Below are positions 8,361-27,968 of a DNA stretch of 64,000 bases, piece by piece. The DNA comes from a virus. Position numbers and translations under genes: made by a program. Each line of letters opens with the position of its first letter. Within the stretch, counting starts at the first letter, position 1. The stretch covers positions 1 to 64,000 of IMG/VR virus record IMGVR_UViG_3300042879_006196. One strand, written 5' to 3'. The notes beneath the pieces were generated by a model. The model did no database searches, had not been told where the DNA came from, and saw nothing but the letters and a program-made list of their open reading frames with translations.

Positions 8361-9869
8361 ATGAATAATTTTATTAAAACACCATTCGAAATTACGGACG
8401 CATACAAGCTTTCTCACTGGAGACAATATCCAGAAGGAACCACTGGTGTGTACTCCAACTTTACACCTAGAAAATCACGAAGACCAGGAATTGACAAGTT
8501 TGTTTTCTTTGGAATGCAAGCTTTTTTACAAGAACTTAATGAGCAATTTGACAAAAATTTCTTTTCATTAACAACAGAAGAAGCTGTTCAAAGATTTGAT
8601 GCTTTTTACATTGGATTCTTCGGATTATCAAATCCACACAGCAATGAACAAGTTGGTAAACTTCACCAACTAGGCTATTTGCCGATTAGGATAAAAGCTT
8701 TACCTGAAGGCTCTGTGGTTAATCATAACATTCCTGTGGCAACTATGCAATCTACACACGAAGATTTCTTTTGGTTTACACAATGGATCGAAACTTGGAT
8801 GTCAGATTCAATTTGGAAACCATCCACTTCGGCAACCACTTCTTTTTATTATCGAAAAATATTCAATTTTTACAATAAACTTACATCCGATAATGATTGG
8901 TTTGTAGATTGGCAAGGACATGATTTTTCTATGAGAGGCATGTCAAATGTGCTTGACGCATGTGCTTCTGGAGCAGGACATTTGCTCAGCTTCAAAGGTA
9001 CAGACACTTGCCCTTCACTTTCATGGATTAATGAATATTATCCTGGTGAAAATGGTTTGCTTGGAAGTTCTGTCCCAGCTACAGAACACTCTGTACAAAC
9101 TGCATTTTTGCCTGAAGTAAGTAACGATACAGATGTTTGTGACGAACAGTACACGGCTCATACTCTTGAGCTTTATCCAGAAGGGATTGTATCTCAAGTA
9201 AGTGATGGATATGATTTTTGGCGATTCGTAACTGTCATTTTGCCTAAGTTCAAGGAACAAATCATGTCTAGAGATGGTAAATTTGTCATCAGACCTGATT
9301 CTTCTCCTAAAACTCCTGTTGAGGTTATCATCGGTGACTCAGAGGCTCCAGAAGGCACACCTGAAAACAAAGGATTAATTGAATGTCTGTATGAAATTTT
9401 TGGTGGTACTTTCAATTCAAAAGGCTATAAAGTATTGGATTCGCATATCGGTGCAATTTATGGTGATTCTATCACGCTGGAATACGCTGAAGCTATTCTT
9501 TCTGGTCTTGAAAAGAAAGGATATTCTTCTGACAATATTGTGCTCGGCATAGGGTCATTCACTTATCAATATGTTACAAGAGACACTCATGGCATAGCAA
9601 TTAAAGCCACTGCTGTTTCTTCTGGTCGCGGAGAAGATCAAAAGTGGAGAGCTACTTACAAAGACCCCAAAACAGACAACTCAGGTAAGAAATCAGCTAA
9701 AGGTTTCTTAAGAGTGGATATGTTTGATGGAGATTATGTTCTTTCACAAAATGTCACACAAGAAGAAGAAGGCGGCGCATTGGAACTTGTCTACGAAAAT
9801 AGCAAGATTCTCAGATCGGAATCCTTCGCAGAAGTTCGACAAACACTCTCTGGGTTTTTACCCAACTAA
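8361..9869 (+). CDS. Nicotinamide phosphoribosyltransferase (NAMPT)
   Basis: 502 aa, normal NAMPT length. N-terminus ITDAYKLSHWRQYPEGT is typical. SFKGTD (D215) matches the nicotinamide-binding Asp region, VPATEHS holds the phospho-accepting His (H243), and FVIRPDS matches the ribose/phosphate region. It joins nicotinamide and PRPP to give NMN. With the Prs gene immediately downstream it forms a PRPP-to-NMN branch that would replenish NAD+ during infection, a pairing known from other large phages. Confidence 0.95.
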   Translation: MNNFIKTPFEITDAYKLSHWRQYPEGTTGVYSNFTPRKSRRPGIDKFVFFGMQAFLQELNEQFDKNFFSLTTEEAVQRFDAFYIGFFGLSNPHSNEQVGKLHQLGYLPIRIKALPEGSVVNHNIPVATMQSTHEDFFWFTQWIETWMSDSIWKPSTSATTSFYYRKIFNFYNKLTSDNDWFVDWQGHDFSMRGMSNVLDACASGAGHLLSFKGTDTCPSLSWINEYYPGENGLLGSSVPATEHSVQTAFLPEVSNDTDVCDEQYTAHTLELYPEGIVSQVSDGYDFWRFVTVILPKFKEQIMSRDGKFVIRPDSSPKTPVEVIIGDSEAPEGTPENKGLIECLYEIFGGTFNSKGYKVLDSHIGAIYGDSITLEYAEAILSGLEKKGYSSDNIVLGIGSFTYQYVTRDTHGIAIKATAVSSGRGEDQKWRATYKDPKTDNSGKKSAKGFLRVDMFDGDYVLSQNVTQEEEGGALELVYENSKILRSESFAEVRQTLSGFLPN

Positions 9870-9874
9870 TTGAC

Positions 9875-9896
9875 ATCGGGCGAGAAATCGCCCGAT
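9875..9896 (+). terminator. Hairpin terminator after NAMPT
   Basis: ATCGGGCGA/TCGCCCGAT perfect stem followed by TCT; the same GGGC/GCCC hairpin type recurs at 13179 and 38095. Confidence 0.7.
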
Positions 9897-9913
9897 TCTA
9901 CCAATACTATATT

Positions 9914-10732
9914 ATGAAAGCAAACGATCCAAACATACTATCACTGATGCAAATCAAAGACCAACATGGAACTATCATCCCTTGGGAATACAATCTCTTT
10001 CCAGATGGTCAAGTGCAATTTAAAATCAAAAAGAGTTATTTAGAAAATCAAGGACTGAGTTTAGAAGTAAAAGCATCCTTGTGTAATCCAACTATTTTAG
10101 ATTTATTTAATCAACTAAAATTCACTTTACCCTTTTGCTCGTTTAATATAAATTACTACTATGGAGCCAGATGTGATAAAAGTTCAACAGACGAATATAT
10201 TGTTTGCAATGTTGCACAACAACATGCCTCCACTGAGTATAGTACATCGTTTTTAGCACCACATTGTAACAAATTGCTTGAAAGTGATATGTACAAATAT
10301 TACATTCCAGATTGCATCAATTTAAATGATTATCATTTAATTGTCTGCCCTGATGAATCAGCTTTTGAAAGATACGAAGAATTCATTGAAAATCACAATT
10401 GTATGATCTGTGAGAAAGAAAGAGATCAAGATACAGGTAGAATTATTTCACACAAAATTCCAAATTTCTCGCCAAATTTCAGAAAAGTGTTAGTAATTGA
10501 TGATCTTTGTGATGGAGGTAATACCTTTATGTCTGTTGCAGATAGTATGCCTTCAGAAACAGAAAAACATCTATTCATTTTTCATGGTGTATTTAGTAAT
10601 AATGCTTTGGAAAAATTAACAGAAAAATTTGACAAGATATTCGTTTCTAATTCTTTACCAAATTACAAAGAACAAATGGCTAGAATTCCAAATTTTGAAG
10701 ATAAAGTGGTGGTTTTCGATGTCTGGAATTGA
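9914..10732 (+). CDS. prs: Ribose-phosphate pyrophosphokinase (PRPP synthetase)
   Basis: 272 aa, shorter than cellular Prs (about 310). The PRPP-binding loop is clear: VLVIDDLCDGGNTF near residue 196. FPDGQ near residue 30 matches the family F-DGE region. It makes PRPP from ribose 5-phosphate and ATP, the substrate of the NAMPT encoded just upstream. The -10 is unclear (TACTAT or TATATT directly before ATG), so it may be weakly transcribed or read through the hairpin. Confidence 0.9.
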   Translation: MKANDPNILSLMQIKDQHGTIIPWEYNLFPDGQVQFKIKKSYLENQGLSLEVKASLCNPTILDLFNQLKFTLPFCSFNINYYYGARCDKSSTDEYIVCNVAQQHASTEYSTSFLAPHCNKLLESDMYKYYIPDCINLNDYHLIVCPDESAFERYEEFIENHNCMICEKERDQDTGRIISHKIPNFSPNFRKVLVIDDLCDGGNTFMSVADSMPSETEKHLFIFHGVFSNNALEKLTEKFDKIFVSNSLPNYKEQMARIPNFEDKVVVFDVWN

Positions 10733-11126: not shown

Positions 11127-11993
11127 ATGAGAGATTATTCAGAAAAACATTGTTGGCAGTATGACATCAGATTGAAAAATTTTGATCTTGATTTGAAAGA
11201 GGCTAATTTTACTGAAAACTATACACACAATCTCACTGTAAATGATTTCGAATACAAACATGTTGTAGATACAAAAGAAAAACAAGAACTTAAAAAATTT
11301 ATCGAACGACATGAATGGCTTGGTAATTTGTCACAAATGACAACACATTGGTTTGGTGCCTATCACAATGGAAAACTAGCTGGTGGCATTTTGTTCAATA
11401 TGCCAAATGCTTTTAGTAAGATTCTTGGAGAAAACACACCTGATTTAGAAAGACTTATCAGCAGAGGGGCATGCATTTCATGGTCGCCAAAATGTTTGGC
11501 ATCGTCTTTTATGATGTGGTGTATTAATTGGATGGTAAAAAACACTCAATATAGATTGTTCACAGCTTATTCTGATCCTGAAGCAAAAGAACTAGGAACA
11601 ATTTATCAAGCGTGTAATTTTTACTATCTTGGAAAAAATTCAGGAACTTTGACCAGATACATTAACCCCTACTCTGGTAAGATTGTGTCAGATAGATATT
11701 TTAGAACTACTTCAGCATATAAAAAATATGCCAAAGAGCTAGGCATTCAATGGCAGAAGTCGTGGAATAAACCAAATGGCAGAATAAATATATCTGCCGT
11801 CCCGAAAGAAATCATGGATCAATTAAGAAAAAAATCTAAAGAAAAAATATCTGAAACTCAACCAATCATTTCAACGTATAAACATAAATACGTGTATGTT
11901 TTAGGTGAAAATAAAAAAGAAACCAAAAAACTCAGAAAAGAATTTGAACTTAGAAATAAAACTTATCCTTATCCTAAAGAGAGAGGGCAGTAA
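11127..11993 (+). CDS. Mom-like DNA adenine modification protein
   Basis: 288 aa. GNAT-like layout typical of phage Mom proteins: HEWLGNLSQMTTHWFGAYHNGKL-type start (in parts), GGILF, LERLISRGACISWSPK, SSFMMWCINWMV, then TAYSDPEAKELGTIYQ and YFRTTSAYKK. Mu Mom adds a carbamoylmethyl group to adenine N6 in DNA and blocks host restriction. The tail beyond residue 215 is basic and longer than in Mu Mom (about 240 aa). Likely protects phage DNA. Class B promoter, leaderless start. Confidence 0.82.
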   Translation: MRDYSEKHCWQYDIRLKNFDLDLKEANFTENYTHNLTVNDFEYKHVVDTKEKQELKKFIERHEWLGNLSQMTTHWFGAYHNGKLAGGILFNMPNAFSKILGENTPDLERLISRGACISWSPKCLASSFMMWCINWMVKNTQYRLFTAYSDPEAKELGTIYQACNFYYLGKNSGTLTRYINPYSGKIVSDRYFRTTSAYKKYAKELGIQWQKSWNKPNGRINISAVPKEIMDQLRKKSKEKISETQPIISTYKHKYVYVLGENKKETKKLRKEFELRNKTYPYPKERGQ

Positions 11994-13664: not shown

Positions 13665-13963
13665 TCGGGGTGTGGTGAAATCGGTAGACACAACAGACTT
13701 GAAGTAAATTTGAGTGCTTGCATGACCCTTTTAGTGCGAGTAGAACCAGTCAAACTCGGTGAAGGCTTTGAAATGCTAATACCGAGCCAAGCCTAGAAAT
13801 AGGAAGGTGTAGAGACTAGACGGCTGGGCGATAAAGGAAATAAAAAAATCGCAAGGTATAGTCCAGAGTACAAACAAGAAAAATCTTGGTGGTGAAAACC
13901 ATAGTGCTACGAAAATCTGTCGGTAGCAATACTGTGAGGGTTCAAGTCCCTCTGCCCCGACCA
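13665..13963 (+). tRNA. trnL(UAA): tRNA-Leu(UAA) interrupted by a group I intron
   Basis: Exons 13665-13700 and 13912-13963 join to an 88-nt class II tRNA with encoded CCA. Acceptor TCGGGGT pairs with GCCCCGA. The anticodon stem ACAGA/TCTGT closes the loop CTTAAAA, which gives UAA. The T arm is GAGGG-TTCAAGT-CCCTC. The intron splits U34 from A35, exactly as in cyanobacterial and plastid tRNA-Leu(UAA). Confidence 0.93.
13701..13911 (+). ncRNA. Group I intron in tRNA-Leu(UAA)
   Basis: 211 nt. P1 forms between exon ACTT and intron GAGT with the splice-site U.G pair. Core motifs include TGTAGAGACTAGACGG and AAGGTATAGTCC, and the intron ends in G. No homing endonuclease ORF. Best fit is the IC3 type of cyanobacteria. 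Confidence 0.92.
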
Positions 13964-13967
13964 ATCA

Positions 13968-14042
13968 GGGCTTATAGCTTAATGGTAAAGCGCTCGGCTC
14001 ATAACCGAAGGAGTGTAGGTTCAATCCCTACTGAGCCCACCA
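13968..14042 (+). tRNA. tRNA with CAU anticodon (Met or Ile2)
   Basis: 75 nt with CCA. Acceptor GGGCTTA/TGAGCCC, anticodon stem CTCGG/CCGAA with loop CTCATAA, T arm GTAGG-TTCAATC-CCTAC. CAU could be elongator Met or lysidine-modified Ile. The GGCTTA acceptor does not decide it. Confidence 0.93.
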
Positions 14043-14478: not shown

Positions 14479-14649
14479 ATGATTAATACAGATTGTGTGA
14501 AAATATATGAGGAAGAATATCAGGTGAGCAAGCAGGTGAGCCATCAGCAGGTGATGGATCGGGTGATGACTCTAGTGTGGTATCAGATTCGCCACGAGGT
14601 AGAGGATCAGGTATTAAGTGAGGTGTGGCTTAAGGTGTGGTATGATTAA
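14479..14649 (+). CDS. Array 1 unit 1
   Basis: 56 aa, MINTDCVKIYEEEYQV start, ends VWYD; 8-nt overlap with the next unit. Confidence 0.75.
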   Translation: MINTDCVKIYEEEYQVSKQVSHQQVMDRVMTLVWYQIRHEVEDQVLSEVWLKVWYD

Positions 14650-14809
14650 TACAGATTGTGTGGAAGTAAAAAAACAGGCACATAATCAGCTAAGGAATCA
14701 GGTGTTGAATCACGTGCGGTATCAGGTGTTGAATCACGTGCGGTATCAGGTGCTGAATCAGGTGTGGTATCTGGGGAGGGATCAGGTGTGGGTTAAGGTG
14801 TTTAGATGA
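14642..14809 (+). CDS. Array 1 unit 2
   Basis: 55 aa, ends KVFR; contains LNHVRYQV repeated twice. Confidence 0.75.
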   Translation: MINTDCVEVKKQAHNQLRNQVLNHVRYQVLNHVRYQVLNQVWYLGRDQVWVKVFR

Positions 14810-14994
14810 TTAATACAGATTGTGTGGAGATAAAAGATTGGGGTCATATAGAGGATCACGTGGAATATCAAACTTCGATTCAGGTATCAAATGAGGTGTG
14901 GAAGCAGGTGTATCTTCATCTGAGGAATCGAATGAAGAAAGAGATGTATTTCTACTTAAGGTGGGAGGTGTGGTTTAAGGTGTGGTTTGATTAA
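14806..14994 (+). CDS. Array 1 unit 3
   Basis: 62 aa, MINTDCVEIKDWGH start, ends VWFD; close paralogue of unit 4. Confidence 0.75.
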   Translation: MINTDCVEIKDWGHIEDHVEYQTSIQVSNEVWKQVYLHLRNRMKKEMYFYLRWEVWFKVWFD

Positions 14995-15175
14995 TACAGA
15001 TTGTGTGGAGATAAAAGATTGGGGTCATATATTGGATCATGTGGAATATCAAATTTCGACTCAGGTGTCAAGTGAGGTGTGGAAGCAGGTGTATTCGCAG
15101 GTGAGAAATCAAACGATGGATGAAATGTATTTCTACGAGAGAAAACAGGTGTGGCTTAAGGTGTGGTTTGATTAA
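14987..15175 (+). CDS. Array 1 unit 4 (TTG start)
   Basis: 62 aa; TTGATTAA overlap gives a TTG start; ends VWFD. Confidence 0.72.
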   Translation: MINTDCVEIKDWGHILDHVEYQISTQVSSEVWKQVYSQVRNQTMDEMYFYERKQVWLKVWFD

Positions 15176-15323
15176 TACAGATTGTGTGGAGATGTATGAG
15201 ATTAAAGATCAGGTGTGGGATAAGGTGGAGTATGAGGTTTCGATTCAAGTGAGGGATCAGGTGTGGGGTTATTTGTATTCCCTCATAAGGTACGAGGTGA
15301 GGCTTAAGGTGTGGTTTGATTAA
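15168..15323 (+). CDS. Array 1 unit 5 (TTG start)
   Basis: 51 aa, ends VWFD; TTG start in an 8-nt overlap. Confidence 0.72.
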   Translation: MINTDCVEMYEIKDQVWDKVEYEVSIQVRDQVWGYLYSLIRYEVRLKVWFD

Positions 15324-15507
15324 TACAGATTGTGTGGAGATAAAAGCGATTAGATATCAGGAGAGAAAACAGGTATGTGATCAGGTGAGAAATCAGGTGG
15401 GGAATGAGGTGAGGAATGAGGTGTGGCATCAGGTAGAGTATCAGGTGTGGGCAAAGGTGTGGTGGTCAGGTGAGGGGAATCACTTGAGTGATCGGATTTT
15501 CAAATGA
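15316..15507 (+). CDS. Array 1 unit 6 (TTG start)
   Basis: 63 aa; regular QVRNQVGNEVRNEV tract; ends in a divergent SDRIFK. Confidence 0.72.
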   Translation: MINTDCVEIKAIRYQERKQVCDQVRNQVGNEVRNEVWHQVEYQVWAKVWWSGEGNHLSDRIFK

Positions 15508-15653
15508 TTAATACAGATTGTTTAAAGGTGAAGGTTGAAGATCAGGTGCAGAATCAGGTGTATAATCTCCTAAGGATTCATGTGAAGCTCCAGTTGGACT
15601 ATCAGGTGTGGGATCGTTTGTTTTGGGAAATGCGGTGGAAGGTGTTCAAATGA
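15504..15653 (+). CDS. Array 1 unit 7
   Basis: 49 aa, MINTDCLKVKVEDQV start, ends WKVFK. Confidence 0.72.
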   Translation: MINTDCLKVKVEDQVQNQVYNLLRIHVKLQLDYQVWDRLFWEMRWKVFK

Positions 15654-15790
15654 TTAATACAGATTGTGTGGAGATATTTGAGATTGAAAGTAAGGCGTAT
15701 GATCAGGTTATGGAACTGGTCTATTATCAGGTTTGGGAACAGGGGTGGTCGAGGGTAAGAGTGTATATGTGTCGTGAGGTGTTCAGATGA
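15650..15790 (+). CDS. Array 1 unit 8
   Basis: 46 aa, ends CREVFR; few regular repeats. Confidence 0.72.
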   Translation: MINTDCVEIFEIESKAYDQVMELVYYQVWEQGWSRVRVYMCREVFR

Positions 15791-15951
15791 TTAATACAGA
15801 TTGTGTGGAGATATTTAACATTAAAGATCGAGTGGGGGAGCAGGTGATATTTGAGGTGAGGATTAAGGTGGTGGATAAGGTGTTGTGGAAGGTGTATGAT
15901 TGGGCGAGGGATCAGGTAAAGGGTAAGGTAAGAGTGAAGGTGTTCAGATGA
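15787..15951 (+). CDS. Array 1 unit 9
   Basis: 54 aa, MINTDCVEIFNIKDRV start, ends VKVFR. Confidence 0.72.
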   Translation: MINTDCVEIFNIKDRVGEQVIFEVRIKVVDKVLWKVYDWARDQVKGKVRVKVFR

Positions 15952-16106
15952 TTAATACAGATTGTGTGGAAGTGAAGAATCAGGTGAAGAATCAAATGAG
16001 GAATCATGTACAGTATCATGTGCAGACTCAGGTGTATGAAAAGGTAGATTATCAGGTGTGGGATAAGGTGTGGTATCTAATGAGGAATAAGGTGATAAAT
16101 GATTGA
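15948..16106 (+). CDS. Array 1 unit 10
   Basis: 52 aa, ends NKVIND with a TGA stop; near copy of the unit at 25724. Confidence 0.72.
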   Translation: MINTDCVEVKNQVKNQMRNHVQYHVQTQVYEKVDYQVWDKVWYLMRNKVIND

Positions 16107-16287
16107 TATAGATTGTGTGGAGATATTTGAGATTAGAGATCGGGTGAAAAATCAGGTGGTGGATAAGGTGTTGTGGAAGGTGTGGTATCTGGCGAGGAAT
16201 CAGGTGAGGGGTCAGGTGTATCTAAAGGTGTGGGATAAGGTGTGTGATCAAGTTGTGTGTCAGGTGTGGCTTAAGGTGCTCAAATGA
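16099..16287 (+). CDS. Array 1 unit 11
   Basis: 62 aa, variant start MIDIDCVEIF; ends VLK. Confidence 0.72.
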   Translation: MIDIDCVEIFEIRDRVKNQVVDKVLWKVWYLARNQVRGQVYLKVWDKVCDQVVCQVWLKVLK

Positions 16288-16502
16288 TTAATACAGATTG
16301 TATGGTAGTGAAGAATCAGGTGAAGAATCAGGTGTTGGATCAGGTGAGTTATCAGGTGTGGGATCAGGTGCTGTATCAGATGTGGCATCAGGTGTATCAT
16401 CACGTGAGGGATCAGGTGTGGTATCAAGTGGAGGATCAGGTGTATGATAAGGTGTGGCATCCTGTGAAATATCGGGTAAAGGGTCAGGTGTTCGATGATT
16501 AA
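16284..16502 (+). CDS. Array 1 unit 12
   Basis: 72 aa, one of the most regular tetrad tracts (DQVSYQVWDQVLYQ); ends VFDD. Confidence 0.78.
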   Translation: MINTDCMVVKNQVKNQVLDQVSYQVWDQVLYQMWHQVYHHVRDQVWYQVEDQVYDKVWHPVKYRVKGQVFDD

Positions 16503-16578
16503 TACAGATTGTTTGAAGGTGAAACATCAATTTAAGAAAGTGGAATCTCAGGTGTGGGATCAGGTGATAGATGATTAA
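16495..16578 (+). CDS. Array 1 unit 13 (short)
   Basis: 27 aa, MINTDCLKVKHQ to QVIDD; a contracted unit. Confidence 0.6.
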   Translation: MINTDCLKVKHQFKKVESQVWDQVIDD

Positions 16579-16729
16579 TACAGATTGTGTTGGAGTAAAT
16601 CATAAAGTATTTTTTGAGAATGTGTCCTTTGAATTGTGGCATCAGACGAGGAATAATCTAAGGTGGCAGGTGAGGAACCAGGTGTGGTTTAAGGTGTATC
16701 TTCAGGTATGGCATAAGGTGTTCAGATGA
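16571..16729 (+). CDS. Array 1 unit 14
   Basis: 52 aa, MINTDCVGVNHKVFF start, ends HKVFR. Confidence 0.72.
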   Translation: MINTDCVGVNHKVFFENVSFELWHQTRNNLRWQVRNQVWFKVYLQVWHKVFR

Positions 16730-16845
16730 TTAATACAGATTGTGTGGAGATATTTGAGAATCGAAATCAGGTGATAACTCAGTTGAGTGATCAGGTGAGT
16801 TCGAATCTGGTGCATAGTCAGGTGTGGTTTAAGGTGTTCAGATGA
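16726..16845 (+). CDS. Array 1 unit 15 (short)
   Basis: 39 aa, ends FKVFR. Confidence 0.68.
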   Translation: MINTDCVEIFENRNQVITQLSDQVSSNLVHSQVWFKVFR

Positions 16846-17018
16846 TTAATACAGATTGTGTGGAGATATTTGAGAATCTAAATCGGGTAGAGGGTAAGGT
16901 GAGGCATCAGGCAAGAGATCAGGTGAGTAATCATGTGTGGTATAAGTTGCGGGATAAGGTGTGGTGGGAGATGTGGTGCTACGTAAGAGTGAAGGCGTGG
17001 AGGAAAATGTTCGAATGA
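16842..17018 (+). CDS. Array 1 unit 16
   Basis: 58 aa, ends RKMFE. Confidence 0.72.
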   Translation: MINTDCVEIFENLNRVEGKVRHQARDQVSNHVWYKLRDKVWWEMWCYVRVKAWRKMFE

Positions 17019-17194
17019 TTAATACAGATTGTGTGGAGATGTATGATAATATTGAGTTATGGTGGAAGGTGACAGATAAAGTGTATGCTGTGGCGAGGAG
17101 TCAGGTGCAGAATCAGGTATTGTTTCATACAAAGACTCATCCTAAGGTGAAACTGAAGGTGAAAGATCAGGTATATTATGAGGTGCTCAGATGA
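17015..17194 (+). CDS. Array 1 unit 17
   Basis: 59 aa, MINTDCVEMYDNIELW start, ends YEVLR. Confidence 0.72.
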   Translation: MINTDCVEMYDNIELWWKVTDKVYAVARSQVQNQVLFHTKTHPKVKLKVKDQVYYEVLR

Positions 17195-17394
17195 TTAATA
17201 CAGATTGTGTGGAGATATTTGAGATTGAAGATCAGGGTTGGGATCAGGTGAGTGATCAGGTGAGTGATCAGGTGGAGTATCAGGTGTGGGAGCAGGTGTG
17301 GTGGAAGGTGTGGGATCAGGTGTGGTATCAGGTGTGGTATCAGGTGTGGTATCTGGCGTGGGATAAGGCGTGGGATGAGGTGATAAATGATTAA
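17191..17394 (+). CDS. Array 1 unit 18
   Basis: 67 aa, very regular (DQVSDQVSDQVEYQVW); ends VIND. Confidence 0.78.
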   Translation: MINTDCVEIFEIEDQGWDQVSDQVSDQVEYQVWEQVWWKVWDQVWYQVWYQVWYLAWDKAWDEVIND

Positions 17395-17551
17395 TACAGA
17401 TTGTGTGGAGATGTATGAGATTGAAAATCAGGTGTGGGATCAGGTGAGTGATCAGGTGGAGCATCAAGTGTGGTATCAAGTGGAGCATCCTTTGTATGCT
17501 CAGGCGAGGGATCAAGTGATGAACCAGGTGTGGCTCAAGGTGTTCAGATGA
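17387..17551 (+). CDS. Array 1 unit 19
   Basis: 54 aa, shares its first 25 residues closely with unit 18; ends LKVFR. Confidence 0.75.
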   Translation: MINTDCVEMYEIENQVWDQVSDQVEHQVWYQVEHPLYAQARDQVMNQVWLKVFR

Positions 17552-17712
17552 TTAATACAGATTGTGTTGAGATATTTGAGATTGAAGATCAGGCGTTGGA
17601 TCAGGTGAGTGATCAGGTGGAGTGGGAGGTGTGGCATCATGTGGAATATAAGGTGTGGTATAATGTGAGTAATCAGGTGAAAAACCCAGTGTGGTTTAAG
17701 GTGTTCGTATGA
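17548..17712 (+). CDS. Array 1 unit 20
   Basis: 54 aa, ends KNPVWFKVFV; its end is duplicated in unit 21. Confidence 0.75.
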   Translation: MINTDCVEIFEIEDQALDQVSDQVEWEVWHHVEYKVWYNVSNQVKNPVWFKVFV

Positions 17713-17864
17713 TTAATACAGATTGTGTGGATGTGAAGGTTGAGGATCAGATTTGGCGTCAGGTGAGTTATCAGGTGGAGTGGGATACGCGGCATCATGT
17801 GGAGGTGTGGTATAATGTGAGTAAGCAGGTGAAAAACCCAGTGTGGTTTAAGGTGTTCGTATGA
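17709..17864 (+). CDS. Array 1 unit 21
   Basis: 51 aa, ends KNPVWFKVFV as unit 20. Confidence 0.75.
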   Translation: MINTDCVDVKVEDQIWRQVSYQVEWDTRHHVEVWYNVSKQVKNPVWFKVFV

Positions 17865-18082
17865 TTAATACAGATTGTGTGGGTGTGAAGGTTGAGGATC
17901 AGATTTGGTGTCAAGTGGAAAATCAGGTGGAGTGTCAGTTGTCGTACTGGGTATGTGATGAGGTGAGATTTGATGCGGTTGATACAGTTTGGCATGAAGT
18001 GGGGTATAAGTTGTATGATCACATGGTTTTTCCAGGTTTAACATTACCCGATTATACTGGATATGATTCAAAAAAAAGATGA
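17861..18082 (+). CDS. Array 1 unit 22 (last)
   Basis: 73 aa. Repeats degenerate in the second half. The C-terminus (VFPGLTLPDYTGYDSKKR) is encoded by the rIIA promoter and the first codons of rIIA, a 20-nt overlap. Confidence 0.7.
   Translation: MINTDCVGVKVEDQIWCQVENQVECQLSYWVCDEVRFDAVDTVWHEVGYKLYDHMVFPGLTLPDYTGYDSKKR
18027..18058 (+). promoter_or_regulatory. Class A promoter for rIIA-like gene
   Basis: TTTTTCCAGGTTTAACA, TATACT 18053-18058, 4 nt before ATG 18063. Confidence 0.85.
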
Positions 18083-20204
18083 CTTTGTAATCGACATGAA
18101 TTCCTCATTTGCACAACGAAAGTTCTCAGTTAAAACTGAGAATCTTGCTCATTTGTTCGACATAATGAGAAATTACATTTACTCAAACAAAATTCTTGCA
18201 GTTATTAGAGAGTACTCTACAAATGCAATTGATGCAAACATAAAAAATAACTTTGCATCTAGACCAATTTCAATCACATTGCCTACGTACTTCGAACCTA
18301 CATTTTCTGTAAGAGACTATGGCGCAGGTTTGAGCGAAGAAGAAATTTTTGAAATTTATTCTAGTTATGGAGAATCCACTAAAAGAGAAAGCAATGAATA
18401 CATTGGTAATCTTGGTATTGGAAGCAAATCTGGCTTCGCTTATTCTGATTCATTTACCATTACTTCATTCCATAATGGAACAAAAAAAATCTATGAAGCT
18501 TTCATTGATGAATCACAAATTGGTACAATTGCAAAAATTCATGAAGAAAAAAATGACAGTGAAAGCGGATTGTTAATATCTATTTCTGTTAATAAAAATG
18601 ACATCAATTATTTCAAAATTGAAGCAGAAAAGTTTTTCATGTGGTGGGATGTTACACCTGAATTTATTGGTGTCCAACCTGATTTTATGTCTCAATTTTC
18701 AACATACAAAAATGAATATTCTTCTAGTATTTGTCAAATCTTTTCAAAAAGATATTCTGAAACTTCAATTTCAGTTAAAATGGGTAATATTCTTTATCCA
18801 GTTACAAATTTTGATAAAATTGATTGTGATTGGTTGAAAGGTTTGTCTGTTGTCATTAAAGTAGGGCTTGGAGAAGTAAGTCACTCCGCTTCAAGAGAAT
18901 CTCTTGAAATGAATAGTTTAACTGTAGATACAATTAATACATATCTTCAAAAAATAAGAGAGACACTTACAGCACATTTCCTGAAGCAAATTGATGATTG
19001 CAAAACACCTTGGGGCGCAATCATAGAATATCATAATATGTCTTTTTTCGCTCAACAAACGATTGGTAAAAAAATATCTTGGAAAGGTAAAACTCTATCA
19101 ACGCAGTTACCGTCTAGTTTTCAATATTGTTTCTTTGATACATACTACAAAAAATGGAAGAAAAATGTAACTGTTCGATACTCCGCTGGAGACAGTGTGG
19201 CTTTTATTTTGAATGATGGAGGTTTTCCAGCGTCACAAACTAGAGCAAGGCTTCTAGCCGCACGTGATAAACTCAACAAGACAAACCTTTACACAAGTAT
19301 CATTTACATAAAAGGTTCAATCTCAGACACAAATGATTTACTAAAAAGTGACGAATTGATTGGATCAAATTATGTCAAGCTTTCAACGGTATTAGCAATT
19401 CCTACTAAAAATAAAAGTAAAAAAGCTGTTGCTGGAAAGATTCTTGAATGGAATTCCACAACAACATTTCCATACTCTACTTGCTGGGACTCTGTAGATA
19501 TACCAGACAGTGATGAAGAAATGATTTATGTTGAGATTGAAAAATTTGTGCCTGTCATGAGCAATTTTAATAACAGTAGCCGAGCGAGGTTTTATGATCT
19601 TAAAAATTGTTTGAATTTGATTCGTGATGTGGATAATAAAGTTTTCAAAATTTACGGAGTAAAAGCTGGTCAAAAATTACCTAAAAATTTTATTAGTCTG
19701 CATGATTACATGGAAAGGATGATTGTAAAATTCATTAAAACAGACGATTTTGTTGATAGTTATGTTCAACATGCAATTAGTCAAGTTAATTTAAGAACAT
19801 CATTCTTGAGTAGTGCAAGAACTCTAATGCAAACATTTGATACTGATATAATGAACAAATTCAATGATGTAAAATGCGAAAAGCTCAAGGCAATGTTTTA
19901 CTTTACTAAGCCTATGATGAATAAATTTTATCATCTTTTGACGAACATAAAAAACATTTCATTTCATTTTCCTAAAATAACCACTGCCTTGTCAGAGTTG
20001 GATGATTTGAAAGACAAAAGATTACAAGTTTGGAATCAAAACAAAAATTATTGTTTGGAAAATTATCCAATGATTGAATTTCATTATTCTCCAAACACTA
20101 TGGCTTTGACAAAAATGTTTGAATATGTAAATTCAATTCACGCAACACAAAACACTGAGAGGCACAAAAAGCCAATCAAAATTTCATCAAAAATTAATGT
20201 TTGA
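18063..20204 (+). CDS. rIIA: rIIA-like protein with GHKL ATPase domain
   Basis: 713 aa, about the size of T4 rIIA (725). N-terminal GHKL ATP-binding elements: REYSTNAIDA (E/N box, about residue 54), VRDYGAGLS (G1, about 86) and YIGNLGIGSKSGF (G2, about 119). The rest matches phage rIIA-type layout without recognised catalytic motifs. In T4, rIIA/rIIB are membrane-associated and affect lysis inhibition and Rex exclusion. The gene sits between arrays 1 and 2. Confidence 0.9.
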   Translation: MIQKKDDFVIDMNSSFAQRKFSVKTENLAHLFDIMRNYIYSNKILAVIREYSTNAIDANIKNNFASRPISITLPTYFEPTFSVRDYGAGLSEEEIFEIYSSYGESTKRESNEYIGNLGIGSKSGFAYSDSFTITSFHNGTKKIYEAFIDESQIGTIAKIHEEKNDSESGLLISISVNKNDINYFKIEAEKFFMWWDVTPEFIGVQPDFMSQFSTYKNEYSSSICQIFSKRYSETSISVKMGNILYPVTNFDKIDCDWLKGLSVVIKVGLGEVSHSASRESLEMNSLTVDTINTYLQKIRETLTAHFLKQIDDCKTPWGAIIEYHNMSFFAQQTIGKKISWKGKTLSTQLPSSFQYCFFDTYYKKWKKNVTVRYSAGDSVAFILNDGGFPASQTRARLLAARDKLNKTNLYTSIIYIKGSISDTNDLLKSDELIGSNYVKLSTVLAIPTKNKSKKAVAGKILEWNSTTTFPYSTCWDSVDIPDSDEEMIYVEIEKFVPVMSNFNNSSRARFYDLKNCLNLIRDVDNKVFKIYGVKAGQKLPKNFISLHDYMERMIVKFIKTDDFVDSYVQHAISQVNLRTSFLSSARTLMQTFDTDIMNKFNDVKCEKLKAMFYFTKPMMNKFYHLLTNIKNISFHFPKITTALSELDDLKDKRLQVWNQNKNYCLENYPMIEFHYSPNTMALTKMFEYVNSIHATQNTERHKKPIKISSKINV

Positions 20205-20238
20205 ATGACTTAGTTACCAACATGCAGAAAATTTAATC

Positions 20239-20364
20239 ATGAAGTTTTTCAATAAATTCTTCTCACTGATTCAGATTGTGTGCATGTTGGTAATTTTGCC
20301 TTTTGCATTCTTTTACTTAACTATTTTAGATTTTTTGGATTACCAAAAATCAAAAAAAATGTAA
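20239..20364 (+). CDS. Tiny membrane protein, 41 aa
   Basis: MKFFNKFFSLIQIVCMLV followed by ILPFAFFYLTIL, one or two membrane passes, basic end. Contains the CAGATTGTGT 10-mer inside the helix-coding part. Follows rIIA by 34 nt. Confidence 0.55.
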   Translation: MKFFNKFFSLIQIVCMLVILPFAFFYLTILDFLDYQKSKKM

Positions 20365-20437
20365 CTATTCTTGAATAGTTATCGTAAATAAAATTGTATT
20401 ATAGATTGAATCTTTTATAGAATTAGTGTGTAATACA

Positions 20438-20470
20438 TTTTTTCCAGGTTTAACAAAACAGGATTATAAT
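20438..20470 (+). promoter_or_regulatory. Class A promoter
   Basis: TTTTTTCCAGGTTTAACA, TATAAT 20465-20470, 4 nt before ATG 20475. Confidence 0.85.
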
Positions 20471-20474
20471 TAAC

Positions 20475-21569
20475 ATGGTTGAACAATTAACACAAGAACA
20501 AATAGACAGTTTTCCACGATTCAGAGATAAGTGGACAAACATCGGACGATCCACTGGCAGAGCTGACCTTTCAGTTGTAAAGCCAATTATCAACAAAATT
20601 TATGAGCAGAAAGATCTTGAAGCTCCAAAGTACTTCTTCCATTTTGGCAATCCGATGGATATGCTCAATGGACGAGTGATTTGCAGAATGCTCAACAGTT
20701 TTGATCCAAAAAATTATCAGAAAGATACAATCAATCTTGATAATGACTTCATGCGTATCTTTGATATGACCTATCAAATGTATTCTGAACAATTCGATTT
20801 GAAATCTGCACATGGTGTGGATTGGAGCGAAGACATCAAGCTTGGAATGCTTTCACATTGCCAAAATCTTTTGAAGTCTAAAAACATGCTTGCATACAGA
20901 AAAGAACTGGAAACTGATGTTCTTTATGGCAACCATGAAGCACACAATCTGGCTTACTACGAATTCTGGGACGAATGGTTCAAATTTGACTTCTTAAAGC
21001 CAATGCATGCATTTTTTGAACTCGCTAACCATCTTGGATGGTGGTGTGCTGAAAAAGAAGTGGCATATTTGTCAGACAAACCTGATGAAGTGCACGTGGA
21101 TGAACTAGGTAGACTTCACAACACCGCAGGACCAGCTGTCAAATACAGAGATGAATTCTCAATCTACTGCATCGAAAGCCATAGCGTTCCTGCCCACGTG
21201 GTAGAGGCACCAGACACAATTACAGTTGAAGAAATTGATTCTCAAACAAACGCTGAAGTTAGAAGAATTTTTATGACACAATTTGGATTCGAAAGATATT
21301 TCCAAGAAGCAAATTGTCAAATTATTGACCAGGATTTTACTGTTGTTGATTATAACAAACAAGAATCTATGCCAAGAATGCTCGTAAAAACTAAATTTGA
21401 TGATGTGTATTTGATCGGAACTGATGGCTCCACAAATCGTGTTTACTACATGCCAATTGGTAATGTAACCACAATCAAAGAAAGATTGGGTGTGAACATC
21501 AAAACCTGTAAGCAAGCACATGAAATCATTTCAGGTGTGAAAGAATCAAATATCATTTCGCAAAGCTAA
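20475..21569 (+). CDS. DUF6745-like protein
   Basis: 364 aa. The core around residues 180-270 fits DUF6745: GWWCAEKEVAYLSDKP, HVDELGRLHNTAGPAV, YCIESHSVPAHVVEAPD and ITVEEIDSQTNAEVRRIF. Function unknown. Its 31-bp downstream spacing to the next gene and a separate TATAAT there suggest a two-gene unit. Confidence 0.75.
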   Translation: MVEQLTQEQIDSFPRFRDKWTNIGRSTGRADLSVVKPIINKIYEQKDLEAPKYFFHFGNPMDMLNGRVICRMLNSFDPKNYQKDTINLDNDFMRIFDMTYQMYSEQFDLKSAHGVDWSEDIKLGMLSHCQNLLKSKNMLAYRKELETDVLYGNHEAHNLAYYEFWDEWFKFDFLKPMHAFFELANHLGWWCAEKEVAYLSDKPDEVHVDELGRLHNTAGPAVKYRDEFSIYCIESHSVPAHVVEAPDTITVEEIDSQTNAEVRRIFMTQFGFERYFQEANCQIIDQDFTVVDYNKQESMPRMLVKTKFDDVYLIGTDGSTNRVYYMPIGNVTTIKERLGVNIKTCKQAHEIISGVKESNIISQS

Positions 21570-21573
21570 TATG

Positions 21574-21579
21574 TATAAT
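21574..21579 (+). promoter_or_regulatory. TATAAT with leader and Shine-Dalgarno
   Basis: TATAAT 21574-21579, then AACAAGGATAAA before ATG 21600: a leadered start using AAGGA, unlike class A starts. Confidence 0.5.
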
Positions 21580-21599
21580 AAATAACAAGGATAAAAAAA

Positions 21600-22037
21600 A
21601 TGACAAAAACCATTAAAAAAACCAAAGCTCAGAATAACCTTTCTGAAATTCAACAATTCGCCACTAAATCTAGCAACGATTGTCGCATCATTGACAAAAT
21701 TGAAGTGGGGCAGTGCGTGAGACAAGGGGATGTTTACATCACCCGAATCGAAAACTTCTCGAAAGTGGGATGCACTAAAGCAGGGCAAAAACTTGCTCCT
21801 GGTGACACCCCTGGCTCAAGACATTTTGTAGATGCACACGTTACTACTTGGCAAAATGAAAACACTGGAAAAGTTGTGCGAAATGAAGTGGGATTCACAT
21901 GTAAAGGATTGCTCCTTGAATGCGATAGAAGCTTCAAGGTCACACACCCTGAACATGCCCATTTCTATCTCCCTGCTGGCTCTTATGAAGTGAGCTATCA
22001 AGTTAACACCAAAGAAATGGCTAGAGTACTTGATTAA
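21600..22037 (+). CDS. Hypothetical protein, 145 aa
   Basis: Not recognised by family name. Lysine-rich N-terminus, then VRQGDVYITRIENF near residue 40, PGSRHFVDAH near 78 and HPEHAHFYLPAGSYEVSYQ near 120; probably a compact beta fold. Higher GC than neighbours. Has its own Shine-Dalgarno and a strong terminator. Confidence 0.7.
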   Translation: MTKTIKKTKAQNNLSEIQQFATKSSNDCRIIDKIEVGQCVRQGDVYITRIENFSKVGCTKAGQKLAPGDTPGSRHFVDAHVTTWQNENTGKVVRNEVGFTCKGLLLECDRSFKVTHPEHAHFYLPAGSYEVSYQVNTKEMARVLD

Positions 22038-22080
22038 AATCTAAAAACAACACACTCACATCTTTTCCAAAAACACCGAA

Positions 22081-22104
22081 GAGGACAATTCAAATATTGT
22101 CCTC
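22081..22104 (+). terminator. Intrinsic terminator
   Basis: GAGGACAAT/ATTGTCCTC perfect 9-bp stem, 6-nt loop, followed by TTTATTTTT. Confidence 0.9.
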
Positions 22105-22127
22105 TTTATTTTTCAATTTTTGCCCGA

Positions 22128-22160
22128 TTTTTTCCAGATTTAACAATTATTATTTATATT
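22128..22160 (+). promoter_or_regulatory. Class A promoter of array 2
   Basis: TTTTTTCCAGATTTAACA, TATATT 22155-22160, 4 nt before the ATG of the first array-2 unit. Confidence 0.85.
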
Positions 22161-22164
22161 AAAA

Positions 22165-22317
22165 ATGATCAACACAGATTGTGCGGAAGTAAATGAAAAA
22201 GTGAATCCTATACAGCATCATGCAATTAATCAAGTACAGTATGAATTGGAGATTGAAGTTTGGGATATGGTAAAATGTAAGGTATCAGGTGAGGTAAGTT
22301 GTCAGGTGTTCGATTGA
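22165..22317 (+). CDS. Array 2 unit 1
   Basis: 50 aa, MINTDCAEVNEKV start, degenerate repeats, leaderless; ends QVFD. Confidence 0.75.
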   Translation: MINTDCAEVNEKVNPIQHHAINQVQYELEIEVWDMVKCKVSGEVSCQVFD

Positions 22318-22469
22318 TTAATACAGATTGTGTGAAAGTGGAACATCCAGTGTGGACTCAAGTGCGAGATCAGCTGTTCTCTCAGGTGCAGTGGAAGGTG
22401 TGCCATAACGTGCTGACTCAGGTGGAGTGGAAGATGCATGATCAGGTGTGGTGGAAGGTGTTCGATTGA
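22314..22469 (+). CDS. Array 2 unit 2 (TTG start)
   Basis: 51 aa, ends KVFD; TTGA overlap. Confidence 0.72.
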   Translation: MINTDCVKVEHPVWTQVRDQLFSQVQWKVCHNVLTQVEWKMHDQVWWKVFD

Positions 22470-22618
22470 TTAATACAGATTGTGTTAAGGTGTGGGAGAA
22501 AAAGGATAAGGTGAGGGGTCAGGTGTGTTATCAAGTGATGGGTCAGGTAGAAGATCAGGTGCATGGTCCTTTGTTTCGGGAAATGTGGTGGCAGGTGTGG
22601 TTTGAGGTTTTCAAATGA
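22466..22618 (+). CDS. Array 2 unit 3 (TTG start)
   Basis: 50 aa, ends EVFK. Confidence 0.72.
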   Translation: MINTDCVKVWEKKDKVRGQVCYQVMGQVEDQVHGPLFREMWWQVWFEVFK

Positions 22619-22794
22619 TAAATACAGATTGTGTGAAGGTGAGGGAGAAAAAGATTCAGGAGTGCGATCAGGTGTATGAGCAGGTGTATGAGCAGGTGTA
22701 TTGTCAGGTGAGTAATCATGTGGAGTATCAGGTGTGGGAGCAGGTGTGGTGCAAGGTATGTAAAAAAGTGTGGTTTAAGGTCTATAATGATTAA
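22615..22794 (+). CDS. Array 2 unit 4
   Basis: 59 aa; regular DQVYEQVYEQVYCQV tract; ends VYND. Confidence 0.75.
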   Translation: MINTDCVKVREKKIQECDQVYEQVYEQVYCQVSNHVEYQVWEQVWCKVCKKVWFKVYND

Positions 22795-22963
22795 TACAGA
22801 TTGTGTGGAGGTGAGGGAGAAAAAGAATCAGGCGACTGAGCAGGTGTATGAGCAGGTGTGTGAGCAGGTGGGGTGGAATGTGGAGTATCAGGTGTGGGAG
22901 CAGGTAGAAGATCAGGTGTGGGATCGTTTGTTTTGGTACTCGCGCTTTGAGGTGTTCAAATGA
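22787..22963 (+). CDS. Array 2 unit 5
   Basis: 58 aa, EQVYEQVCEQV tract, ends FEVFK. Confidence 0.75.
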   Translation: MINTDCVEVREKKNQATEQVYEQVCEQVGWNVEYQVWEQVEDQVWDRLFWYSRFEVFK

Positions 22964-23148
22964 TTAATACAGATTGTGTGGTGAAGAAGCAGGTGTGGGA
23001 GTATGTAGAAAGTCAGGTGTTGTGGAAGGTGTATGATTGGGTGAGTGAGCAGGTGAATTGGCAAGTGGAGATTCAGTTGTGGGATAAGCTGTTTGCTCAG
23101 GAAAGACATCAGGTACGGCATCAGGTAAAAGTGAAGGTGTTCAAATGA
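22960..23148 (+). CDS. Array 2 unit 6
   Basis: 62 aa, MINTDCVVKKQVWEYV start, ends VKVFK. Confidence 0.75.
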   Translation: MINTDCVVKKQVWEYVESQVLWKVYDWVSEQVNWQVEIQLWDKLFAQERHQVRHQVKVKVFK

Positions 23149-23288
23149 TTAATACAGATTGTGTGGAAGTTGAAAGCCATGTGAAGAATCAGGGGTTTGA
23201 TCAGGTGTGGAATCAGGTGGAACTTCAGGTGTGGGGTCAGGTGTGGGATTATTTGTGGTGGAAGGTGTGGCTTGAGGTGTTCGAATGA
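23145..23288 (+). CDS. Array 2 unit 7
   Basis: 47 aa, ends LEVFE. Confidence 0.72.
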   Translation: MINTDCVEVESHVKNQGFDQVWNQVELQVWGQVWDYLWWKVWLEVFE

Positions 23289-23461
23289 TTAATACAGATT
23301 GTGTGTATGATTGGGTGAGTGGTGATTGGGTGAGTGATCAGGTGGAGCTTCATGTGAGGAATCAAGTGCGGGGTCAGGTGTGGGGTCAGGTGTGGGATAA
23401 GGTGCGGGATCAGGTGGAGTATCAGGTGTGGGAGCAGGTGTGGTTTGAGGTGCTCAGATGA
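23285..23461 (+). CDS. Array 2 unit 8
   Basis: 58 aa, GQVWGQVWDKVRDQV tract, ends FEVLR. Confidence 0.75.
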   Translation: MINTDCVYDWVSGDWVSDQVELHVRNQVRGQVWGQVWDKVRDQVEYQVWEQVWFEVLR

Positions 23462-23634
23462 TTAATACAGATTGTGTGGAAGATCAGGTGGAGTATCAGG
23501 TGGAGTATCAGGTGGAGCTTCAGAAGTGGGGTCAGGTGTGGGATGAGGTGTGGTGGAAGGTGTGGCTTGAGGTAAGTGATCAAGTAAGGGATCAGGTGTT
23601 TTATAAGGTGTGGTTTGAGGTGTTCTATGATTAA
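23458..23634 (+). CDS. Array 2 unit 9
   Basis: 58 aa, DQVEYQVEYQVELQ tract, ends EVFYD. Confidence 0.75.
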   Translation: MINTDCVEDQVEYQVEYQVELQKWGQVWDEVWWKVWLEVSDQVRDQVFYKVWFEVFYD

Positions 23635-23818
23635 TACAGATTATGTGGTAAATAAGCAGGTGTGGTGGCATGCAGAAGATCAGGTGTTTTCGAATATGCG
23701 TGATTGGGTGTGGTGGCATGTAGAAGATCAGGTGTATGATCAGGTAAGGATATTGGTGCAGATTCATGTGTGGGATCAGGTGGGGGGTCAGGTGTATGAC
23801 CAGGTGTTCTATGATTAA
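23627..23818 (+). CDS. Array 2 unit 10
   Basis: 63 aa, Cys of the motif replaced (MINTDYVV), ends QVFYD. Confidence 0.75.
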   Translation: MINTDYVVNKQVWWHAEDQVFSNMRDWVWWHVEDQVYDQVRILVQIHVWDQVGGQVYDQVFYD

Positions 23819-23981
23819 TACAGATTGTGTGAAGGTAAAGAAGCAGGTGTGGGAGCATGTAGAAAATCAGGTGTGGTTTGAGGTGTATGATTGGGTGAGT
23901 GAGCAGGTGAATTGGCAAGTGGAGATTCAGTTGTGGGATGAGGTGTTGTATCAGGTGTTGTGGATTAAGGTGTTTAGATGA
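23811..23981 (+). CDS. Array 2 unit 11
   Basis: 56 aa, shares VSEQVNWQVEIQLWD with unit 6; ends IKVFR. Confidence 0.75.
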   Translation: MINTDCVKVKKQVWEHVENQVWFEVYDWVSEQVNWQVEIQLWDEVLYQVLWIKVFR

Positions 23982-24157
23982 TTAATACAGATTGTGTGAA
24001 GATAAAAAATCAAATGTATGATCAGGTGGAGTGGAAGGTGTATGATCAGGAGTGGTGGTATCGGGTGAGCATTCTAGTGTTGGATCAGTTGGAGTATAAG
24101 GTGTGTAATCAGGTGTGGTGGGAGGTGTATAAGGGTGTGTGGCAGGTGTTAAAATGA
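23978..24157 (+). CDS. Array 2 unit 12
   Basis: 59 aa, ends WQVLK. Confidence 0.72.
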   Translation: MINTDCVKIKNQMYDQVEWKVYDQEWWYRVSILVLDQLEYKVCNQVWWEVYKGVWQVLK

Positions 24158-24342
24158 TTAATACAGATTGTGTGGAAGATCAGGTGTGGGATCAGGTGGA
24201 GCTTCAGGTGTGTAATCATGTGTGGTATCATGTGAGGTATCAGGCGTCTCAGCAGTTGGGGGTTAAGGTGAGAGGTCAGGTGAAATACAAGGTGAGGTAT
24301 CATGTGAGAGATCAAGTGGTGTGTGAGGTGTGGTATGATTAA
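24154..24342 (+). CDS. Array 2 unit 13
   Basis: 62 aa, MINTDCVEDQVWDQVELQV start, ends CEVWYD. Confidence 0.75.
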   Translation: MINTDCVEDQVWDQVELQVCNHVWYHVRYQASQQLGVKVRGQVKYKVRYHVRDQVVCEVWYD

Positions 24343-24412
24343 TACAGATTGTGTCAAGGTGAGGGAGCAAGATAAGGTGTGGGATCAGGTGTGGTGGAAG
24401 GTGCTCAAATGA
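24335..24412 (+). CDS. Array 2 unit 14 (short)
   Basis: 25 aa, ends WKVLK; contracted unit. Confidence 0.6.
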   Translation: MINTDCVKVREQDKVWDQVWWKVLK

Positions 24413-24603
24413 TTAAAACAGATATTGTGAAAGTGAAACGTGAAAATCAAATGTGTTTTAAGATTTATCACAATTTGGAACAACAAGTGCACTGGAATAT
24501 ACTTTATCTGGTGAAAGCTCAAACGAAAAATAGACTTTTTGCACAGAAGAATCTGCTGGGTAGGATTGTAGATCGCGAGATCAAAAGGCGCTCAAATGAT
24601 TAA
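24409..24603 (+). CDS. Array 2 unit 15 (divergent)
   Basis: 64 aa, MIKTDIVKVKRENQ start with little tetrad repeat; related to the last unit at 27233 (CFKIY block). Confidence 0.72.
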   Translation: MIKTDIVKVKRENQMCFKIYHNLEQQVHWNILYLVKAQTKNRLFAQKNLLGRIVDREIKRRSND

Positions 24604-24679
24604 TACAGATTGTGTGGTTGTGTGGAATCAGGTGAGACATCAGGTACGGCATCAGGTAAAAGTGAAGGTGTTCAAATGA
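24596..24679 (+). CDS. Array 2 unit 16 (short)
   Basis: 27 aa, ends VKVFK. Confidence 0.6.
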   Translation: MINTDCVVVWNQVRHQVRHQVKVKVFK

Positions 24680-24909
24680 TTAATACAGATTGTGTGGAGG
24701 TATGTGAGATTAATCATGTATGGACTCAGGTGAATTATAAGGTGACACATCAGGTGAAGAGAGTGGCATCTCAGGTTCACTCTGAGGTGAGACATCAGGT
24801 ACGGCATCAGGTGTGGTGTGAGGTAGAGGATCAGGTGGAGTGGAATGTGTGGAATAAGGTGCTGGGTCAGGTGTGGAATCAGGTGAGGATTCAGGTGTGG
24901 TATGATTAA
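24676..24909 (+). CDS. Array 2 unit 17
   Basis: 77 aa, MINTDCVEVCEINHVW start, shared with 29654; ends IQVWYD. Confidence 0.75.
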   Translation: MINTDCVEVCEINHVWTQVNYKVTHQVKRVASQVHSEVRHQVRHQVWCEVEDQVEWNVWNKVLGQVWNQVRIQVWYD

Positions 24910-25072
24910 TACAGATTGTGTGGAAGATCAGGTGTGGGATCAGGTGGAGCTTCAGGTGTGTAATCAGGTGAGGTATCAGGTGAGGTATCAGGTGAGGGTT
25001 CAGGTGTGTGATAAGGTGAGGGGGAGGTGGTGCTACGTAAGAGTGAAGGTGTTGTTTAAGGTGTTCAGATGA
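24902..25072 (+). CDS. Array 2 unit 18
   Basis: 56 aa; DQVWDQVELQVCNQV start shared with units 13 and 19; then a GRWCYVRVKV segment where the tetrad phase breaks; ends KVFR. Confidence 0.72.
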   Translation: MINTDCVEDQVWDQVELQVCNQVRYQVRYQVRVQVCDKVRGRWCYVRVKVLFKVFR

Positions 25073-25257
25073 TTAATACAGATTGTGTGGAAGATCAGGT
25101 GTGGGATCAGGTGGAGCTTCAGGTGTGTAATCAGGCGAGGTATCAGGTGAGGTATCAGGTGAGGGAGGAGGTGTCTGATAAGGTGAGGGGTCAGGTGAGA
25201 TATAAGGTGAGGCATCATGTGAGAGATCAGGTGGTGTGTGAGGTGTTCTATGATTAA
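25069..25257 (+). CDS. Array 2 unit 19
   Basis: 62 aa, near duplicate of unit 13; ends CEVFYD. Confidence 0.75.
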   Translation: MINTDCVEDQVWDQVELQVCNQARYQVRYQVREEVSDKVRGQVRYKVRHHVRDQVVCEVFYD

Positions 25258-25399
25258 TACAGATTGTGTAAAGGTGAGGGAGCAAGATAAGGTGTGGAAT
25301 CAGGTGCAGGATCATGTGTGGTTTGAGTTGTGGTATAAGGTGCGGGATCAGGTGAAGATTGAGGTGAGGTTTCAGGTGTGGGTTCAGGTGTTCAAATGA
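25250..25399 (+). CDS. Array 2 unit 20
   Basis: 49 aa; its DHVWFELWYKVRDQVK block recurs in unit 24. Confidence 0.72.
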   Translation: MINTDCVKVREQDKVWNQVQDHVWFELWYKVRDQVKIEVRFQVWVQVFK

Positions 25400-25560
25400 T
25401 AAATACAGATTGTGTGGAAGTGGAAGATGATTCAAATTTGACTAAAATGAAACATGTGTTGACTCATGTGCGCGATAGGGTGGAGGTTAGGGTGTGGTTT
25501 GCGGTGTCGGCTCTTGTGGAATGTCGGTATTGGTATGAAGTAAGAGATAATGTGTTCTAA
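25396..25560 (+). CDS. Array 2 unit 21
   Basis: 54 aa, starts ATGATAAATACAG; ends RDNVF with TAATG overlap. Confidence 0.72.
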   Translation: MINTDCVEVEDDSNLTKMKHVLTHVRDRVEVRVWFAVSALVECRYWYEVRDNVF

Positions 25561-27900: not shown

Positions 27901-27902
27901 GA

Positions 27903-27935: not shown

Positions 27936-27968
27936 GTTTCCAAGACAAATTTCGTAGAATGTAGTGGT

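Follow-up and report, generated by a model that had tools for sequence, protein, structure and literature searches.

What is the intron that interrupts a phage tRNA-Leu(UAA) gene between U34 and A35, the position known in cyanobacteria, and to which lineage does it belong? A 2014 review placed all phage introns then known in protein-coding genes and noted that phage introns avoid tRNA genes despite the many tRNA genes of phages (PMC3984707). We analysed a window of 64,000 nt, corresponding to bases 1-64000 of a 347,392-nt IMG/VR virus record that was covered as seven stretches. ARAGORN with introns allowed (-i) called a tRNA-Leu(taa) at 13666-13963 with a 211-nt intron at gactt/aaaat, whereas default ARAGORN missed the gene. 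The gene, its intron and the U34/A35 split, all claimed by the sequence-only reading, were confirmed, while the gene was found to start one base after the 13665 given there. The following features were identified:

13666-13700, plus strand: 5′ exon of tRNA-Leu(UAA), ending C32-U33-U34 (ARAGORN -i).
13701-13911, plus strand: group I intron, 211 nt, without a long ORF, ending in omega-G (ARAGORN -i; Rfam RF00028, E 2.4e-8; covariation, 33 homologues).
13912-13963, plus strand: 3′ exon of tRNA-Leu(UAA), A35 first, long variable arm, encoded CCA (ARAGORN -i).
13968-14042, plus strand: neighbouring uninterrupted tRNA with a CAU anticodon, 4 bases downstream of the tRNA-Leu.

The intron starts with GAAG and ends with CTACG. 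With the cut site at U34/A35, joining of the exons gives the loop CUUAAAA and a normal class-II tRNA with a long variable arm and an encoded CCA, and the spliced junction (anticodon-arm) sequence was found intact in 26 viral contigs. TTA was the commonest leucine codon in the 22 phage ORFs counted (37.5% of leucine codons), and a UUA-reading tRNA would thus be useful to the phage. An Rfam match to Plastid-ycf2 was rejected, as it corresponded to the complementary strand of the CAU tRNA.

We then examined the group I identity of the intron. The Rfam Intron_gpI model (RF00028) matched it at 38.3 bits, which is under the gathering score of 50, a score threshold of the curators and not a structural feature; the relatives L006 and L014 passed this threshold with 63.1 and 56.9 bits. 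It was the sole group I intron detected in the 347,392-nt record. Every group I helix from P1 to P9b was paired in the window intron, including the P3/P7 pseudoknot, and the terminal G at the 3′ splice site was present. The helices are located as follows:

13698-13714, plus strand: P1, CUU^GAA / UUUGAG, with U34.G at the splice site, 6/6 pairs.
13717-13740, plus strand: P2 (13717-13722 / 13735-13740), 6/6 pairs, loop without a GAAA tetraloop.
13746-13827, plus strand: P3 (13746-13751 / 13822-13827, 6/6), P4 (13755-13760 / 13781-13786, 6/6), P5 (3/3), P6 (3/3) and P6a (4/4), all standard pairs.
13814-13863, plus strand: guanosine-binding helix P7 (13814-13818 / 13859-13863) and P8 (13828-13832 / 13848-13852), 5/5 pairs each.
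13867-13908, plus strand: P9 (13867-13871 / 13904-13908, 5/5 standard pairs), P9a (13875-13888, 5/5 standard pairs) and P9b with a GAAA loop (13890-13901).

The U.G pair of P1 was unchanged in 33/33 rows of the family alignment, and the UUU of the P1 strand could alternatively pair with A35-A37 as P10. A covariation test was conducted on 33 phage pre-tRNAs, using a structure drawn from L102 with the pseudoknot included and 500 shuffles. Paired cells made up 97.0% compared with 79.6% in the shuffles, two-sided changes were seen in 386 cells compared with 113.1 (none of the 500 shuffles was as high), and 47 pairs showed such changes compared with 32.3. Sliding the partners by one column lowered pairing to 36-40%, and P3 and P7 were each paired in 100% of cells across the 33 rows. 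This covariation rules out chance for the group I fold, and the phage tRNA introns are, judging from their sequences, a maintained ribozyme family. The group I assignment, the P1 helix with its U.G pair and both conserved core segments quoted in the sequence-only reading were thus borne out.

Scanning IMG/VR with the P7 motif yielded at least 119 stretches, and once their splice sites had been re-solved, this one conserved motif had led to at least about 80 phage contigs with tRNA-Leu(UAA) introns at U34/A35; these counts are approximate, as L068, L078 and L117 are still counted as Leu though they look like CAU tRNAs. CAU, Thr, and Asn or Lys tRNAs also carried introns among the IMG/VR matches listed. 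ARAGORN calls of tRNA-Tyr(ata) and tRNA-Ser were rejected as artefacts of intron placement and re-solved. Named carriers are the isolate Agrobacterium phage Atu_ph07, which has no tRNA annotated at the intron-bearing locus, and the 735-kb uncultured huge phage LR756501. A pattern specific to the window core matched no further viral contig. As a side observation, Acetobacter lovaniensis and a viral contig share near-identical introns in their tRNA-Thr(UGU) (L087 and L211). It appears that the phage tRNA-intron family is widespread and undescribed, with the window as one divergent member; our searches of the open-access literature yielded no description of a phage tRNA with a group I intron, which leaves priority unproven. 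Default tRNA searches miss such interrupted genes in phages, and the isolate Atu_ph07 makes splicing testable. Known group I introns of phage protein genes (Pelagibacter phage HTVC120P, KT997847 between split capsid genes, T4 td and SPO1) are phage-borne like the window intron, and the KT997847 capsid-gene intron matched it with 91% identity over 76 nt of the core, but all of these lie in protein-coding genes and not in a tRNA.

Part of this family belongs to cyanophages. Photo_RC genes were present in five of the eight family records tested, indicating a large cyanophage subgroup with psbA-bearing members. The 3′ exon of L097 shared 91-96% identity with the tRNA-Leu found in phages of Synechococcus and Prochlorococcus, and the L006 contig carried a Photo_RC gene and matched cyanophages only. 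When the tRNA-Ile/tRNA-Met/tRNA-Leu cluster of L006 was aligned with that of S-PM2, one large gap appeared that corresponded exactly to the intron, which gives intron-plus and intron-minus alleles at one locus, at the family level and in phages other than that of the window. By sequence, these cyanophages carry an intron of the phage lineage at the cyanobacterial site.

Taken together, we propose that the window intron is a small IC3-type group I ribozyme and a member of a family, carried by phages, that parasitises the anticodon loops of tRNAs; from the sequences we give this reading a probability of about 85%. Its basis lies in the observed anatomy, covariation, kinship, and presence or absence in related phages. 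The trnL intron is a textbook example of ancient vertical inheritance, and the sequence-only reading had identified the window intron with this ancient cyanobacterial and plastid intron. Such an intron, captured from a cyanobacterial host, would account for the shared gene and insertion site, for the likeness of part of the 3′ exon to tRNA-Leu of cyanobacteria (best exon identity 78%, with the non-cyanobacterial L145 at 77.5%), and for the best match of the NAMPT gene, which came from a Microcystis phage (55%). However, identity over aligned columns did not exceed 54.8% for 14 cyanobacterial trnL introns drawn from a sample of 146 genomes, against up to 76.5% for phage tRNA-Leu introns among the matches listed. 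By BLAST, the best match among those listed was the phage intron L014 (81% over 180 nt, 160 bits), followed by further phage tRNA introns, while the best cyanobacterial trnL intron reached 59 bits. As for the letters of P7, which are partly set by the search patterns, phages and most bacteria had AGACTAGACGG/ATAGTCC, and cyanobacterial trnL mostly had AGACTCGACGG/AGAGTCC. In the trees, which rest on about 200 columns, cyanobacterial trnL formed a single clade with a support of 100, far from the window; forcing the two together gave a p-AU of 0.034 in the smaller, cleaner tree, though the same one-clade constraint gave 0.62 in the larger tree, where the free search had missed a better tree. The long branch of the window makes its position among the phage introns approximate. 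In addition, no Photo_RC gene was found in the phage of the window. We consider capture of the cyanobacterial intron highly improbable: the insertion site is the same, but a place within the cyanobacterial/plastid trnL lineage is not supported for the window intron, which by sequence would lie outside it. The two share the tRNA, the U34/A35 site and the overall fold, and the cyanobacterial/plastid introns are likewise small and usually ORF-free, whereas their lineage and P7 letters differ and the window copy is phage-borne.

The tRNA and its intron could also have been captured jointly from a non-cyanobacterial host such as an alphaproteobacterium, with the kinship among phages reflecting repeated host capture. 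Introns in tRNA-Leu(UAA) and tRNA-Arg are known outside cyanobacteria, for instance in Beggiatoa and Thiomargarita (PMC4853749), and our GTDB scan with the P7 motif identified at least 43 tRNA-Leu(UAA) introns at U34/A35, at least 41 in CAU tRNAs and at least 12 in Arg(CCU), so that tRNA-Leu(UAA) introns of the same subtype exist in many bacteria; carriers at U34/A35 include Rhizobiales, Acidobacteria, Planctomycetes and Bacteroidota. The tRNA-Leu intron of the marine alphaproteobacterium L209 followed the phage rows in identity to the window (73.8% over aligned columns; 92% over 86 nt) and was placed inside the phage cluster of the cleaner tree. However, L209 might represent a remnant of a phage, most bacterial tRNA-Leu introns grouped in clades separate from those of the phage introns, and the phage introns cross tRNA bodies, as described below; joint capture from such a host is therefore judged unlikely. 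Proteobacterial and acidobacterial tRNA-Leu(UAA) introns (Rhizobium, Bradyrhizobium, Terracidiphilus) share the site and the P7 letters with the window intron and are similar in size, but they reside in bacterial genomes, mostly in their own clades, with a median identity to the window of 62%. Introns of the Azoarcus type (group IC3; L179, in a CAU tRNA after position 36) share the core layout and the conserved core segments, but differ in tRNA and position, at 59% identity; the window intron presumably resembles the Azoarcus ribozyme itself as well. Because both the site and the P7 type occur outside cyanobacteria, the core segment TGTAGAGACTAGACGG is, as far as sequence can tell, no cyanobacterial mark.

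These comparisons bear on the host. Since the site is common to many non-cyanobacteria, an intron at U34/A35 does not point to a host among the cyanobacteria and must not serve for assigning one. The host link drawn in the sequence-only reading did not hold: the site is widely shared, Photo_RC is missing and the nearest kin are phage introns. Host assignment from RIIA, NAMPT, DNA polymerase III, GroEL and the phrog_22485 protein gave distant, mixed matches below 60% identity, the upstream RIIB had a single distant relative, and a PF03237 terminase was not found in the phage.

We further studied what sets the window copy apart. At 96 intron columns, at least 31 of the 32 relatives agreed; the window differed at 10 of these columns, seven of which lie in L2 and P8: four constitute the GAAA loop of P2, three are in P8 and one is beside P4, and one P9 pair is flipped from C-G to G-C. 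The L2 tetraloop, absent from the window, was present in 32/32 aligned relatives; of the IC3-type GNRA features, GAAA in L2 and P9b family-wide, the window retains only that of P9b. Docking of L2 into P8 is established for the Azoarcus ribozyme. For this reason the L2 and P8 changes look like a coordinated loss of the L2-P8 contact with the catalytic core kept, and by this analogy one tertiary contact of the window intron has probably been lost. The missing tetraloop, the shifted P8 and the low Rfam score might instead indicate a decayed intron that no longer splices and leaves a dead tRNA gene. This is very unlikely in our judgement, given that all helices are intact, the altered P8 and P9 positions still pair, so that the changes are compensated, the departures are few and concentrated in L2 and P8, and the exons form a normal tRNA.

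The phage-borne ribozyme reading also raises the question of mobility. An intron of the L099 type was 91-93% identical to the class-II tRNA-Leu introns, although the tRNA bodies were only 46-58% identical (anticodon arm left out); the tRNA that it interrupts is 73 nt long, with the anticodon UAA and a short variable arm. Such 73-nt UAA tRNAs without a long variable arm, with the same kind of intron, were seen in L099, L025, L050, L056, L061, L062, L075 and L088. Four contigs (L007, L018, L044 and L095) carried a 688-nt intron with a 161-aa HNH ORF. Near-identical introns in unrelated tRNA bodies, together with HNH ORFs in some members, indicate at the sequence level that the family is mobile between tRNA bodies. 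Just downstream of the tRNA-Leu of cyanophage L022 lie an HNH-like gene, matched weakly at E 0.0034, and a NUMOD3 gene. They are comparable to the free-standing homing endonuclease that, as cited in PMC3037559, targets an intron site in cyanophage psbA (Zeng et al. 2009), a model for mobility in trans of an ORF-less intron; that enzyme acts on psbA, however, and no such gene was found in the phage of the window. As had been claimed, the window intron encodes no endonuclease, its 211 nt containing no long ORF, and neither HNH nor GIY-YIG genes were found in the 347,392-nt record, so that present mobility of the window copy is unsupported. The horizontal movement proposed in the sequence-only reading thus stands for the intron lineage but not for this copy at present. 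The contig of L014, the closest intron among the matches listed, encodes relatives of RIIA and RIIB (36% and 44% identity), and the window tRNA-Leu likewise lies near RIIB and RIIA genes; on this ground the two introns may possibly descend from a distant common phage ancestor. In two Bacteroidota contigs (L162 and L190), a 724-725-nt tRNA-Leu intron with an HNH-like ORF was observed (Pfam match in L162), which may correspond in bacteria to the HNH introns of phages.

From sequence we infer that the tRNA is spliced, charged and used in translation, and also by what route the intron moved. The phage would transcribe the tRNA with its intron, which would fold around the split anticodon arm and bind guanosine at P7. 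The first cut would fall after U34, at the U.G pair of P1, and the second after the terminal G, and joining of the exons would give a tRNA-Leu(UAA) reading UUA. Recombination at the shared anticodon arm would have carried the intron from phage to phage, aided in some members by the intron HNH endonuclease and in others probably by nearby nucleases, and the window copy, now endonuclease-free, would be passively inherited. More tentatively, phages may keep an actively moving family of anticodon-loop introns that transfers from one tRNA body or isotype to another (Leu, CAU, Thr, Lys/Asn) and among phages with widely differing hosts, and that serves as the reservoir seeding bacterial tRNA introns. 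A phage lineage at the trnL site makes the horizontal spread of tRNA introns directly testable.

Other features of the record were observed. About 85 tandem small ORFs, mostly of 46-77 aa, occupy one strand at 14479-33200 of the window; each starts with MINTDCV, followed by a loose 4-residue period (xQVW/xQVR), and an RIIA-like and a DUF6745 gene break up the array, which has a GC skew of 0.4-0.6. The exact 23-base start of these ORFs was found in no other IMG/VR contig, and two members searched against Pfam gave no match. Directly after the array, at 33180-33349, lie 3.7 near-perfect copies of a 46-base repeat, and a perfect 111-base tandem duplication at 601-822 overlaps an ORF. Adjoining NAMPT-like and ribose-phosphate pyrophosphokinase-like genes (8361-10732 and 11127-11993), possibly a pair for NAD salvage, are followed by a Mom-like DNA modification gene. 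Finally, ARAGORN identified a tmRNA in the phage (L260:17534-17917, record 321534-321917) with the tag AKKNRRNGFGSAQAGFAMVA, and the L014 contig likewise carries a tmRNA.
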